NCBI RefSeq assembly: GCF_008641065.1
Contig: NZ_VTRS01000003.1
Coordinates: 310,001 to 374,000, forward strand
DNA length: 64,000 bases
Source: Rhabdaerophilum calidifontis
Lineage (GTDB): Bacteria > Pseudomonadota > Alphaproteobacteria > Rhizobiales > Beijerinckiaceae
Reading direction: 5' to 3'
The notes under the pieces were generated by a model. It was given only the letters and a program-made list of their open reading frames with translations, searched no databases and was not told the DNA's origin. Both the position numbers and the translations under genes were made by a program. Of this stretch, positions 34,201-53,980 are shown in pieces; the stretch's first letter is position 1; each line of letters begins with the position of its first letter.

Positions 34201-34718
34201 GGGAACAGGCGCCGGAGCATCCGCAGCCGCGTGCGGGCAAGATCGACGCCGCCAAGCGCGAAGGCGCGGTCAATGGGGCCAATACCGCCGCCGGTCAGCG
34301 CGATCAGCCCTTCGGTCTGCCCCTCCAGTGCGGCGATGGGGAGATGAACCGAATCCCCCGCCGGATTGTCGAGGAAGGCCCGGCTCGAGAGCGCCATCAG
34401 CCGCGCATAGCCCTCGGGGCTCGCCGCGAGCAGGACCAGCGCGCCGCGCGCCTCCGACCCTATACCCGGCCGCATCCGCGCCGGCCGGTCCCCGAAATCC
34501 ACGCAGAGCTCGATCCCCGTGATCGGCTGGATGCCGGTGCCGGAGAGCTTCTCCGAGAATTCCAGCGCCCCGAACAGGTTGTTGGTGTCGGTCAGCGCCA
34601 GGGCCGGCATCCGGTCCTCGGCGGCGAGCTTGGCGAGCTTGCCGATCGTCAGCGCTCCCTCGAGCAGCGAGAACGAGGAATGCACATGCAGATGAACGAA
34701 ACCCGGCCCCGCCGCCAT
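31266..34718 (-). CDS. dnaE: DNA polymerase III alpha subunit DnaE (replicative DnaE1 type)
   Basis: 1150 aa. Catalytic subunit of the chromosomal replicase. The N-terminal PHP domain starts FVHLHVHSSFSLLEGAL, which is the DnaE1 form; the SOS mutagenesis paralogue DnaE2/ImuC begins differently. Polymerase motifs include GPGRGSGAGSLVAYSL and the metal-binding PDFDIDFCQDRRDEV (about residue 404). GVFQVESAGMRRALVEMKPDRIEDIIALVALYRPGPM, the HhH region and the OB domain (HARLAATLVGMEIRRTRNG) follow. ATG 34718 has GGGAGAGGG upstream. It lies 17 bp behind a 33-codon gene that begins just after an SOS-box promoter, so dnaE appears to be damage-responsive here. Confidence 0.96.
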   Translation of the reverse strand: MAAGPGFVHLHVHSSFSLLEGALTIGKLAKLAAEDRMPALALTDTNNLFGALEFSEKLSGTGIQPITGIELCVDFGDRPARMRPGIGSEARGALVLLAASPEGYARLMALSSRAFLDNPAGDSVHLPIAALEGQTEGLIALTGGGIGPIDRAFALGGVDLARTRLRMLRRLFPNRLYIELERFGLAEARAIEPALIDLAIDERLPAVAANNAYFAAAEDFEAHDALLCIAGGVAVDAPNRRRLTPEHRFKTRAEMAALFADLPEALEASVEIAERCHVRPRTRRPILPRFTAGDVADEAAELRRQAEAGLAARLAAHGPAPGRTATEYHERLAFELSVIERMQYPGYFLIVADFIQWAKAQAIPVGPGRGSGAGSLVAYSLTITDLDPLRYGLFFERFLNPERVSMPDFDIDFCQDRRDEVIRYVVGRYGAGRVAQIITFGTLLARGVLRDVGRVLGLPYGQVDRLTKLVPQNPANPITLAKAIEEEPQLRAAAAENEAVGRMLAIAQKLEGLYRHASTHAAGIVIGDRPLEELVPLYRDPKSDMPVTQFNMKWVEPAGLVKFDFLGLKTLTVLQGAVDLLARQGITVDLLAIPLDDPASYAMLARGETVGVFQVESAGMRRALVEMKPDRIEDIIALVALYRPGPMANIPVYCDVKHGRQKADYAHPMLEPILAETFGVIVYQEQVMQIAKVMAGYSLGEADMLRRAMGKKIKAEMDAQRARFVEGAVANGVGAGEADQIFDLLARFADYGFNKSHAAAYALVAYQTAYLKANYPVEFLAASMSLELSNTDKLGEFRREAQRLGIRVEPPDVNRSQVAFDVRDGAILYALAAVKGVGIEAARAIVAAREQGPFRSVADFARRIDPRLVNKRTLEQLVGAGALDALEPNRGRLVAGLDAILAEANAHGAERASGQGGLFGGGEESALLVLPEAQPLGLAERLRREHAAVGFFLSGHPLDPYAALLDRASIGDFATFQRAARDGATHARLAATLVGMEIRRTRNGNKIAILALSDRSGQFEAMLFSEMLQTKRALLEPGAALHLTVAGSVEGEDLRVRVLELEGLEAALARARRGIQLVVTEQALRDPRRPAALGGLEQVLKRGVDGEVAMTIMLADGREVDIKLPGRFALPAAAAATLAAIPGILEVKPF

Positions 34719-34735: not shown

Positions 34736-34837
34736 TCAGATCAGCGGCCAAGCGCCGCCGATCCCGGCCCAGAACGCCACCATAACGAAGAATGCACCGA
34801 TCGAAGCCAGTTCGATCATCTCTTCCACAGCCCGCAT
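34736..34837 (-). CDS. 33-aa single-pass membrane microprotein, SOS-controlled
   Basis: A 33-codon gene not previously obvious because of its size. It begins MRAVEEMIELASIGAFF, continues VMVAFWAGIGGAWPLI and ends with TGA at 34736-34738. The first nine residues carry three Glu and one Arg. Residues 10-29 form one hydrophobic helix with two Phe, one Trp and small residues, so it should sit in the inner membrane. GGGAGGCAGGC immediately precedes the ATG, a strong ribosome site. An SOS box and promoter lie 19-60 bp upstream, and dnaE follows after 17 bp. Size, topology and control recall SidA, the 29-aa SOS-induced division inhibitor of Caulobacter. I see no basis for claiming sequence homology. 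Confidence 0.72.
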   Translation of the reverse strand: MRAVEEMIELASIGAFFVMVAFWAGIGGAWPLI

Positions 34838-34855
34838 GCCTGCCTCCCGCCAAAT

Positions 34856-34870
34856 GTTCATGTTTTGTTC
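34856..34870. promoter_or_regulatory. LexA-binding SOS box (GTTC-N7-GTTC)
   Basis: GTTC at 34856-34859 and GTTC at 34867-34870 with exactly 7 bp between; the other strand reads GAAC-AAAACAT-GAAC. This direct repeat is the established LexA operator of alphaproteobacteria, and the A-rich spacer also fits. It overlaps the -10 of the promoter for the 33-aa gene and dnaE, so bound LexA would block RNA polymerase. Confidence 0.82.
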
Positions 34871-34896
34871 TAGATTGCCGCCGCTTGTTTGTCAAG
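34868..34896 (-). promoter_or_regulatory. Promoter of the 33-aa gene and dnaE
   Basis: Minus-strand CTTGAC (34891-34896), a perfect alphaproteobacterial -35, and CTAGAA (34868-34873) as -10, with a 17-bp spacer. Predicted start near 34861, about 24 nt before the ATG at 34837. No second equally good promoter was found between here and 35047. Confidence 0.75.
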
Positions 34897-34921
34897 CGCC
34901 ATCCTGTCGGTGATTCGCACC

Positions 34922-34950
34922 CGTGACAGGCGCACGTTTCACGCTAGACT
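34922..34950 (+). promoter_or_regulatory. Predicted promoter of the CHAD operon
   Basis: CGTGAC (34922-34927) and TAGACT (34945-34950), 17 bp apart, pointing rightward. Divergent from the SOS promoter, with about 25 bp between the two -35 elements. The leader runs about 55 nt to a 12-codon upstream reading frame. Confidence 0.45.
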
Positions 34951-35012
34951 GGTTTGCCGGCGCATGGATTGCGCCAAAAGGCTGCGTTGCTCCGGAAAGC
35001 GGGGAGGAAACC

Positions 35013-35051
35013 ATGCGCGTACACGATGTTCCGAGGATAACCCCGCCATGA
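35013..35051 (+). CDS. 12-codon leader peptide overlapping the CHAD gene
   Basis: ATG at 35013 is preceded by GGGGAGGAAACC, the strongest ribosome site in this stretch. It opens a frame reading MRVHDVPRITPP and stopping at TGA 35049-35051, which overlaps the next ATG (ATGA). The CHAD start itself has only a weak site, so its translation may depend on ribosomes finishing this leader. Whether the peptide has a function, or only serves coupling, cannot be told. Confidence 0.5.
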   Translation: MRVHDVPRITPP

Positions 35052-36103
35052 CCGTGGGAATCATCGCCCCGGATACCATGACGATGAATGCTGCGGCTCC
35101 GGCCCCTGCCAATGCGGCGCGGCCGCGCGGGCGGACGCGATCCCCGCCCAAGCCCAAGCCGGCGAAGGCCCTGCTGCGCGCGCCGCCGCCCGCCCTTCGC
35201 CGGCACGAGGATATCGCCCGCGGGCTGGTCCGCCTGCTGAAGACCGAGATCGCGGCCGCGCGCGCCCTGCTCGCGGCACAGGCCGCACAGAGCACGCCCC
35301 TGGTCATCCACGCCGCGCGCCGCCGCCTGAAGCGCGCGCGGGCGATCGTGCGCCTCCTCCGCCCCGTGCCGGAAGCGGATGCCCCTGCGCTTGCCGCGAT
35401 GCTGCGCGACGCTTCGAAGGCGCTGGCCGGCGCGCGCGATGCATCGGTGCTGGCCGAAACCGCCGAGACGCTCGCACGCCGCATCGCCCGACCCGCGGAG
35501 GAAGCGCTGCTCGCATCGATCGCCGATCACGCCCGGATGGAGGCCGCACGGCTCGGCCAGGCCGGCCCCGGCCCCGGCCGGGCGGCGCGGCGGCTCCGCG
35601 CGGCGGAACGACATGTCGGAGCGCGGCTTGCCGTTCCGGGGCGGCCGGCGCCGCCCTCGGCGCTGATCCTGCCGCGCCTCGCGACAATCTACCGGCGCGC
35701 GCGCAAGGGCTGGCGTCGCGCCCAGGCCGCTCCGGATGCCGAGACGCTGCATGAATGGCGGCGCAGGGTGCAGGACAGGCTGCATCTCGCCCGCATCTTC
35801 GCGCGGCGCTGGCCCGAACGGAAACCGCCGCGCGAAAGCCGCCTCGACCGGCTGAGCGAGGTGCTCGGCCGCGACCATGATCTGGCGGTGCTTGCGGCCC
35901 GGATCCCTGCCGATCACGCCGCGGCCCCGGCGATACAGGCCGCAATCGCCGACCGGCATCGGCAACTCGCGCGCAAGGCGTTGAAGCTCGGCGGCACGCT
36001 GTTCGGCGGCAAGAGCGGGCCGCGCCGTCGCGCCTGGCTCGCGCTGGACAGAACCGCGCCGGGCCAGGAAGCACCCGTCATGGAGGTAACCCAGCCGGCC
36101 TGA
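35048..36103 (+). CDS. CHAD domain protein
   Basis: 351 aa. CHAD is an all-helical domain with conserved histidines that binds polyphosphate, often found next to CYTH/adenylate cyclase-like triphosphatases. Two repeats are visible: residues about 80-190 with IHAARRRLKRARAIVRLLRP, and about 210-330 with LHEWRRRVQDRLHLARIFARRWP and LGRDHDLAVLAARI. The first 45 residues are an Ala/Pro/Lys-rich, disordered-looking tail. No CYTH domain is fused and none is adjacent. The protein is very rich in Arg, in keeping with anion binding. The start is ATG 35048, overlapped by a 12-codon leader frame. Confidence 0.85.
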   Translation: MTVGIIAPDTMTMNAAAPAPANAARPRGRTRSPPKPKPAKALLRAPPPALRRHEDIARGLVRLLKTEIAAARALLAAQAAQSTPLVIHAARRRLKRARAIVRLLRPVPEADAPALAAMLRDASKALAGARDASVLAETAETLARRIARPAEEALLASIADHARMEAARLGQAGPGPGRAARRLRAAERHVGARLAVPGRPAPPSALILPRLATIYRRARKGWRRAQAAPDAETLHEWRRRVQDRLHLARIFARRWPERKPPRESRLDRLSEVLGRDHDLAVLAARIPADHAAAPAIQAAIADRHRQLARKALKLGGTLFGGKSGPRRRAWLALDRTAPGQEAPVMEVTQPA

Positions 36104-52678: not shown

Positions 52679-53980
52679 TCACTCCGCCGCGATCCGCACG
52701 GGGTCGCCGTGCGGGTTCGCCGAATATTGGTCGATCTTCGCCTCGATCTCGTGGCGGAAATGCCGGATCAGCCCCTGGATCGGCCAGGCCGCCGCGTCGC
52801 CGAGCGCGCAGATCGTGTGCCCCTCGATGCGGGTCGAGACATCGAGCAGCATGTCGATCTCGCGCTTCTGCGCGCGGCCCTCGGCCATGCGCGCCATCAC
52901 CCGCGCCATCCAGCCCGTCCCCTCGCGGCAGGGCGTGCACTGGCCGCAGCTCTCGTGCTTGTAAAAATGCGCGATCCGCGCGATCGCGCGCACGATATCC
53001 GTGCTCTTGTCCATCACGATCACCGCCGCGGTGCCGAGGCCGGATTTGAGGCCCCGCAGCGTGTCGAAATCCATGAAGGCGTCGGCGATCTGCTCCGCCG
53101 GCACCAGCGGCACCGAGGAGCCGCCGGGGATGACGCATTTGAGATTGTCCCAGCCGCCGCGGATGCCGCCGCAATGCCGGTCCACCAGCTCGCGGAAGGT
53201 GATGCCCATCGCCTCCTCGACATTGCAGGGCGTGTTCACATGCCCGGAGACGCAGAAGAGCTTGGTTCCGACATTGTTCGGCCGGCCGATCCCAGCGAAC
53301 CAGCCTGCGCCCCGGCGCAGGATCGTGCCGGCGACGGCGATCGATTCGACGTTGTTGACCGTGGTGGGGCAGCCATAAAGGCCCATATTGGCCGGAAAGG
53401 GCGGCTTCAGGCGCGGTTGGCCCTTCTTGCCCTCAAGGCTTTCAAGCAGCGCCGTCTCCTCGCCGCAGATATAGGCGCCGGCGCCGTGATGGACGTAGAA
53501 ATCGAACGGATAGCCGTGGACATTGTCCTTGCCGATCAGCTTCGCGGCATAGGCCTCGTCCACCGCCTTCTGGAGCGCGATCCGCTCGGCGATGAATTCG
53601 CCGCGGACATAGATATAGGCCGCGTGCGCGCCCATCGCGAAGCTCGCGATCATCGCGCCTTCGATCAGGAGATGCGGGTCGTGGCGCAGGATCTCGCGGT
53701 CCTTGCAGGTTCCGGGCTCCGATTCGTCGGCATTGATGACGAGATAATGCGGGCGCCCGTCATTCACCTTGGGCATGAACGACCATTTCATGCCGGTCGG
53801 GAAGCCCGCGCCGCCGCGCCCGCGCAGGCCCGAAGCCTTCATCTCGTCGAGGATCCAGTCCCGCCCCTGCGCGAGGATATGCTTGGTGCCGTCCCAGTTG
53901 CCGCGCCGGAGCGCAGCCTGAAGACCCGGATCCTGCCGGCCATAGAGATTGGTGAAGATGCGGTCGCGATCGTGGAGCAT
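52679..53980 (-). CDS. nuoF: NADH-quinone oxidoreductase subunit F
   Basis: 433 aa. NADH- and FMN-binding subunit. [20 protein letters not shown] binds [21 protein letters not shown] and [19 protein letters not shown] follow, and the [4Fe-4S] N3 site is [12 protein letters not shown] with a further Cys in TICALGDA. It starts 6 bp after an unrelated lipoprotein gene that separates it from nuoE. Confidence 0.98.

Follow-up and report, generated by a model that had tools for sequence, protein, structure and literature searches.

Which protein, if any, is made from the 33-codon reading frame that separates an SOS box from the gene of the replicative DNA polymerase in Rhabdaerophilum calidifontis? 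The frame lies in the stretch analysed here, 64,000 nucleotides (nt) of contig NZ_VTRS01000003.1 (positions 310,001 to 374,000, hereafter the window), on the minus strand just ahead of dnaE. A first-pass annotation made from the letters alone had proposed an SOS-induced membrane peptide analogous to SidA of Caulobacter, and had taken SidA to be confined to its relatives. The evidence bears out the core of the first proposal, although 'analogous' understated the likeness: synteny and a profile hidden Markov model (HMM) place a homologue at the same position. The supposed confinement is not borne out: diverged homologues stand at dnaE in Hyphomicrobiales, although the curated SidA model gave no match above its cut-off in the relatives scanned. 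It is quite probable, in our judgement, that the window open reading frame (ORF) is a diverged sidA that opens a sidA-dnaE unit under LexA control and halts division upon DNA damage.

A single-helix frame between a LexA box and dnaE

The elements of the locus, all on the minus strand, are given in the order in which they are read:
34867..34895, minus strand: promoter TTGACA-N17-TAGAAC, recognised by eye, its -10 element overlapping the SOS box
34856..34870, minus strand: LexA (SOS) box GAACAAAACATGAAC, direct repeat GAAC-N7-GAAC, assigned by pattern; similar boxes stand at the genome's own recA and lexA, and a box is present in 14/14 genus upstreams
34843..34848, minus strand: Shine-Dalgarno GGGAGG, read directly, with the ATG 5 nt further on
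34736..34837, minus strand: SidA-like microprotein, 33 codons and a TGA stop; frame read directly, conserved in relatives, single predicted helix
31266..34718, minus strand: dnaE, DNA polymerase III alpha subunit, 1150 amino acids (aa), with PF07733, PF17657 and PHP matches and NF004226 above its cut-off

Translated from 34837 to 34736, the frame gives MRAVEEMIELASIGAFFVMVAFWAGIGGAWPLI and then a stop. The dnaE ATG at 34718 follows 17 nt past that stop, a gap that suggests co-transcription of the microprotein with dnaE. The N-terminus is acidic (E5, E6 and E9 versus R2), and the peak 17-residue hydropathy window covers residues 10-26 with a mean of 2.13. The peptide, about 30 aa long, is predicted to form one hydrophobic helix; the AlphaFold2 model has a helix at residues 2-28 and a mean predicted local distance difference test (pLDDT) score of 90.7. 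Thus the first-pass description (a 33-codon frame with a good ribosome site, an acidic N-terminus, one helix and an SOS-box promoter) was confirmed throughout. Scans of the peptide against PHROGs, Pfam and NCBIfam gave no match, nor did tblastn against plasmid records.

By pattern alone, the box would be weak evidence, because the window holds two boxes of the GAAC-N7-GAAC type against 0.9 expected, and at least two occurred in 21/100 shuffles. Single sites likewise carry little meaning, given that the whole genome has 76 on both strands versus 24 for the reversed control. What makes the window box convincing is that the genome's own recA and lexA carry such boxes, and that GAAC-N7-GAAC stands in the direction of the gene in 150/263 dnaE upstreams (600 bases each), whereas the four patterns used as controls occur in 1, 2, 4 and 8 of them; GTTC-N7-GTTC was seen in 14/263. 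We examined 15 box sites of the genome, mostly picked for an AT-rich box, plus 12 of the 30 loci from the genome-wide box search. Among the 15, the box stands before recA (PF00154), lexA (PF01726) and a DUF5131 gene, while none of the other sites had a gene linkable to DNA repair by domain. From the box we infer that LexA regulates the unit in R. calidifontis. TTGAC and TAGAAC are seen in all 14 rows of the genus alignment; the promoter scan of the window did not report TTGACA-N17-TAGAAC because it requires T at the final position of the second hexamer.

Further boxes were observed elsewhere. Two overlapping LexA boxes directly precede lexA of the same genome (contig C13 199356-199381, locus L332). 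The other match in the window, at 53265-53279 (GTTC-N7-GTTC, GTTCCGACATTGTTC), is putative only. Upstream of dnaE in six loci (L031, L033, L034, L035, L036 and L038), an opposite-sense box GTTC-N7-GTTC begins 18-46 nt after the first.

The frame is conserved ahead of dnaE

We scored dnaE upstreams in relatives with a fixed rule, which asked for an ORF of 24-50 aa whose start lies at most 90 nt downstream of a perfect box and whose 17-residue hydropathy is at least 1.7. Three loci were left out before counting: L086 and L125, whose upstream is truncated where the contig or record stops, and L275, which is only 100 bases long and lacks dnaE. Eighty of 541 loci were kept in the sample. A dnaE match was obtained in 98 relatives, of which 94 were either read or left out for the reasons just given, and G005, G018, G022 and G048, with only weak matches, were left unread; 42 class upstreams were read of 262 genomes with a match, and 49 of 192 for Caulobacteraceae. 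Named loci and other genomes partly overlap (L043 and L152 have the same peptide), and so the groups are not summed as independent genomes.

The rule found the ORF in R. calidifontis (1/1) and in the other genus members read (13/13), making 14/14 readable genus genomes. Among upstreams with a box it found an ORF in 39/45 from the family and order (79 read), 41/41 from named loci, mostly Hyphomicrobiales (79 read), 7/11 from the wider class (42 read) and 34/41 from Caulobacteraceae (49 read), with lengths of 25-47 aa. When the first box was kept and the DNA from there to dnaE was shuffled, such an ORF arose in only 0-2.7% by group, indicating that its presence exceeds chance. With an HMM threshold of at least 12 bits on the plus strand, frames were recovered in 1/1 own, 13/13 genus, 46/79 family/order and 42/79 named upstreams, groups that trained this HMM, and in 6/42 class and 46/49 Caulobacteraceae upstreams, which did not; the top score of 1664 minus-strand frames was 4.7 bits. 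Rule and HMM combined account for 42/45, 41/41, 10/11 and 41/41 boxed upstreams of the family/order, named, class and Caulobacteraceae groups, respectively. In many of the cases gained through the HMM, the box carries a single mismatch. The same order, box, short single-helix ORF, dnaE, recurs in Hyphomicrobiales and Caulobacteraceae.

Within the genus, the alignment of 30 codons in 14 genomes has no indel and no stop. The pN/pS ratio (nonsynonymous to synonymous) is 0.49 in the frame, whereas either of the remaining forward frames gives 1.02; dnaE codons give 0.33. Because the reverse-strand frames span 0.63-1.23 (0.95, 0.63 and 1.23), this test by itself is only moderate. Relatives that keep the box and dnaE but have lost the frame, which the first-pass annotation would have held against its own proposal, are absent from the genus (14/14 intact). 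Further out, six of the 45 boxed family/order upstreams fail the strict rule; the HMM rescues three of them, L145, L155 and, as part of a longer frame, L169, and the remaining three show nothing by rule or HMM.

Caulobacter SidA occupies the same place

Two genomes, G479 and G460, have a MipZ identical over 260/260 residues to the sequence of PDB 2xj4, which we take to come from C. crescentus; among 14 control genomes, the MipZ family matches only in Caulobacter vibrioides. By this identical MipZ, G479 was identified as Caulobacter crescentus/vibrioides. Searches with the dnaE of L102 or with the MipZ family alone did not identify Caulobacter. A MipZ-like protein in G341 is not the MipZ of Caulobacter, but its alignment to the PDB yielded the MipZ sequence by which Caulobacter was recognised.

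Ahead of dnaE, G479 carries a box, GGAGG and a 29-residue ORF, which a GTG four codons upstream would extend to 33. The corresponding stretch in G460 also has 29 residues, and an earlier ATG in frame would make the ORF 40 aa. The NCBIfam equivalog NF033228, 'cell division inhibitor SidA', whose curated cut-off is 35 bits, is matched over all of its positions (1-29/29) by the ORF of G479 at 72.3 bits and by that of G460 at 72.4 bits. By NCBI's curated model, then, the 29-aa ORF before dnaE in C. crescentus is SidA.

Published data are compatible with this placement. SidA is described as a 29-aa inner-membrane protein that acts on FtsW, and does so in trans (PMC4211646). Its locus is CCNA_02004 (PMC10769358), and Caulobacter dnaE is CC1926 (PMC1839093); the two positions are compatible, since recN, CC1983 in one series and ccna_02062 in the other, links the numbering. 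We did not encounter a printed statement that sidA and dnaE adjoin in the portions of the literature examined.

The window peptide is a diverged homologue of SidA

We built an HMM from 84 distinct peptides without any Caulobacteraceae (Hyphomicrobiales, one Parvibaculum locus, and metagenome-assembled genomes labelled only Alphaproteobacteria). L087 and L102, to which it gives 3.2 and 5.6 bits, were kept out of it. In some Caulobacteraceae frames, the additional residues ahead of the conserved start were removed before scoring. All 33/33 distinct Caulobacteraceae peptides, SidA included, scored between 12.6 and 27.7 bits (median 22.4). Full shuffles stayed below 4.4 bits in 95% of cases with a maximum of 12.4, and shuffles of the apolar residues only stayed below 7.0 bits in 95% with a maximum of 15.1. 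An HMM free of the genus itself gave the window peptide 31.4 bits, while its 50 shuffles reached at most 7.5, and put 12/13 other genus, 34/34 Caulobacteraceae and 5/7 class peptides above 99% of shuffles. Similarity to SidA beyond composition is thus seen in this direction, the reverse direction being weak, and the genomic place (LexA box, ORF, dnaE) is the same. Because of this shared place, the curated-model SidA in G479 and the matches of the Caulobacteraceae-free HMM, we regard the window ORF as a sidA homologue and not merely an analogue: as judged by profile and position, its product is a diverged SidA that falls outside the curated family. Also in favour of this reading is ribosome profiling (Ribo-seq) in Sinorhizobium meliloti, which detected translation of a small ORF, sORF25, in the 5' untranslated region (5'-UTR) of dnaE1 (PMC10117765). 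By its location, sORF25 is probably the same gene as the SidA-like ORF upstream of dnaE; a 28-aa homologue stands at dnaE in Sinorhizobium/Ensifer loci L088, L089, L093, L095, L096, L100, L101 and L107.

Several observations weigh against this reading. NF033228 does not match the window peptide (no match at E<=1, hence below its cut-off), it is above cut-off in 0/100 relatives, and its three weak matches in the R. calidifontis genome are located elsewhere. The model is narrow even among six Caulobacteraceae peptides, four of which pass (72.4, 54.2, 57.8 and 41.2 bits) and two fail (34.8 and 18.3). The reverse test is weak, as a narrow Caulobacteraceae HMM gives the window peptide 4.7 bits and puts only 46/84 of the other peptides above 95% of shuffles. 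Among the 13 peptides from the genus, that of L124 scores 4.3 bits with the genus-free HMM, under the shuffle level. The N-terminus differs, being acidic in the window peptide versus R..RE in Caulobacter, and the WPLI tail is missing in most others. The box-ORF-dnaE unit is also far from universal, since the combined rule and HMM account for only 46/79 family/order, 44/79 named and 11/42 class upstreams when those without a box are included (47/49 in Caulobacteraceae); neither a rule-based ORF nor a 12-bit frame is found in 33/79, 35/79 and 31/42 of these, respectively, and 5/7 of the rule-based class ORFs score below 12 bits. Finally, we found no functional data from outside Caulobacter in the literature searched.

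Copies away from dnaE and in phages

We searched 100 relatives with a profile (A2) to which some of them had themselves contributed rows, and obtained matches in 57 at E<=0.1. Of the 49 matches at E<=1e-3 (coordinates read by eye), 44 adjoin dnaE and five lie elsewhere. A perfect box is kept in two of the five. In G049 (L344) it starts 27 nt before the ATG, and the copy lies between peroxidase and ABC transporter genes; in G036 (L343) box and peptide stand beside an ABC gene (lol type by eye) ~280 kb from dnaE, showing that the link to dnaE can break while box and peptide stay joined. No perfect box lies close to the copies in G031 (L341), G035 (L342) and G073 (L345).

Additional copies occur at prophage-like loci: the one in G073 just mentioned (L345; S24-type repressor and DUF2303), one in G034 (L348; sliding clamp, and an S24 match of 20.8 bits, under the cut-off of 23.3) and one in G040 (L347; sliding clamp). 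Four IMG/VR contigs (L349-L352) also carry SidA-like copies. The viral and prophage copies are not independent, because L349 and G040 have identical clamp genes and those of L351 and G034 are 99% identical. These prophage and viral copies are 33-44 aa long, with scores of 19.5-21.9 bits, whereas no other frame in those loci exceeds 5.5. As judged from these matches, phages of Hyphomicrobiales seem to carry a SidA-like division inhibitor. A tblastn search of phage records with the prophage-type copy gave no match, and scanning viral contigs for the neighbouring DUF2303 yielded no relative.

Proposed function and alternatives

If the homology extends to function, DNA damage would lead to RecA-triggered loss of LexA and free the promoter. 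The peptide would then be made and, as one helix, become inserted in the inner membrane. By homology with SidA, and following the model of PMC4211646, it would hold the septal cell-wall complex FtsW/FtsI/FtsN inactive, so that division waits, and the same promoter would increase the supply of the replicase subunit. Membrane insertion, FtsW as the target and division arrest are in this way carried over from SidA, which a 2026 paper has modelled on transmembrane helix 7 (TM7) of FtsW, without high confidence (PMC13396833).

It is unlikely, in our view, that a peptide of the SidA lineage, SOS-induced and with a single membrane helix, has taken on another job, for instance depolarisation or the binding of another divisome or envelope partner. 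The divergence of the sequence and the failure of the curated model would fit such a change of role. TisB and DinQ are membrane-depolarising SOS peptides. Single-helix SOS peptides with different roles exist, DinQ being an example (PMC3567139). However, both the synteny and the profile are conserved with SidA.

Distinctly improbable is a leader peptide or upstream ORF (uORF), in which translation of the short frame would tune dnaE in cis and the amino acids would matter little. The ORF does lie in the 5' region of dnaE, its stop 17 nt away here and ~7 nt at the minimum. The authors of the S. meliloti study, moreover, suggest that 5'-UTR small ORFs, sORF25 among them, could be uORFs (PMC10117765). 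Nevertheless, the amino acids are conserved (F16 is kept in 76/84 aligned peptides) and the profile crosses orders. Between the ORF stop and the point where the dnaE match begins, an approximate start, lie 7 to 406 nt, and more than 100 nt in 72/135 cases. The two off-dnaE copies that retain the SOS box, in G049 and G036, argue against a leader, as does G031, which retains the peptide without a perfect box. Finally, the counterpart in C. crescentus is SidA, which acts in trans (PMC4211646).

That the ORF is due to chance, or merely extends DnaE in frame at its N-terminus, is scarcely credible: the dnaE frame is indeed open up to 34895, but the two start codons are 119 nt apart and hence in different frames, and the microprotein has its own ribosome site, is kept in 14/14 genus genomes with a pN/pS of 0.49 versus 1.02, and far exceeds the shuffled controls.

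Meaning of a SidA homologue at dnaE

The diverged-SidA reading supplies a concrete, short candidate gene for the control of division during DNA damage in many Hyphomicrobiales, and a possible identity for a Ribo-seq ORF now considered a possible uORF. It would place a likely division brake under the same SOS promoter as the replicative polymerase. It also shows that distant members escape a curated model whose training was confined to one corner. For a broader proposal we see the case for and against as evenly balanced: that SidA is an old alphaproteobacterial checkpoint in a LexA-controlled replicase unit, retained next to dnaE across much of Hyphomicrobiales and Caulobacteraceae, active also in the polar-growing Hyphomicrobiales, taken up by temperate phages to hold host division, and overlooked owing to its small size and divergence. 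In the literature searched, which left subscription papers mostly outside, there was no report of SidA beyond Caulobacter and its kin or of a tie to the ORF upstream of dnaE in Hyphomicrobiales. The same literature yielded no account of which gene makes division wait in Hyphomicrobiales with damaged DNA, SulA not having been sought in these genomes.

Neighbouring genes

A divergent 404-codon frame on the plus strand (34889-36103) shares the intergenic region with the microprotein unit; its product presumably resembles a CHAD-domain protein. The dnaE of the window is the sole DNA polymerase III alpha gene detected in the R. calidifontis genome (G000; PF07733, one match), and so the error-prone DnaE2/ImuC is seemingly absent from it. 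Two or three such matches were seen in 14/16 other genus genomes, the second one in G016 being due to a contig split.

Comparison with known systems

S. meliloti sORF25 resembles the window frame in its small size and its place ahead of the polymerase gene: it is translated, and it lies in the dnaE1 5'-UTR. It differs in the uORF role suggested by its authors, and SidA has no occurrence in the main text of that paper (PMC10117765).

YneA of Bacillus, SosA of Staphylococcus, ChiZ, DivS and DidA are likewise damage-induced small membrane proteins that block division. They are larger than the window peptide and, to our knowledge, unrelated to it in sequence. The induction of DidA is independent of SOS (PMC4211646). 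YneA is reported to contact FtsW, and such a contact has been modelled for ChiZ, SosA and SidA (PMC13396833).

The closest counterpart is SidA of C. crescentus (CCNA_02004; NF033228), with an upstream LexA box, a short single-helix peptide and dnaE next downstream. The two peptides have in common the core pattern E/D-x-x-x-L/F-x-S-x-x-x-F-x-x-M. In contrast to SidA, the window peptide has 33 aa, an acidic N-terminus and a WPLI tail, and fails the curated model; its effect on division is proposed by homology.
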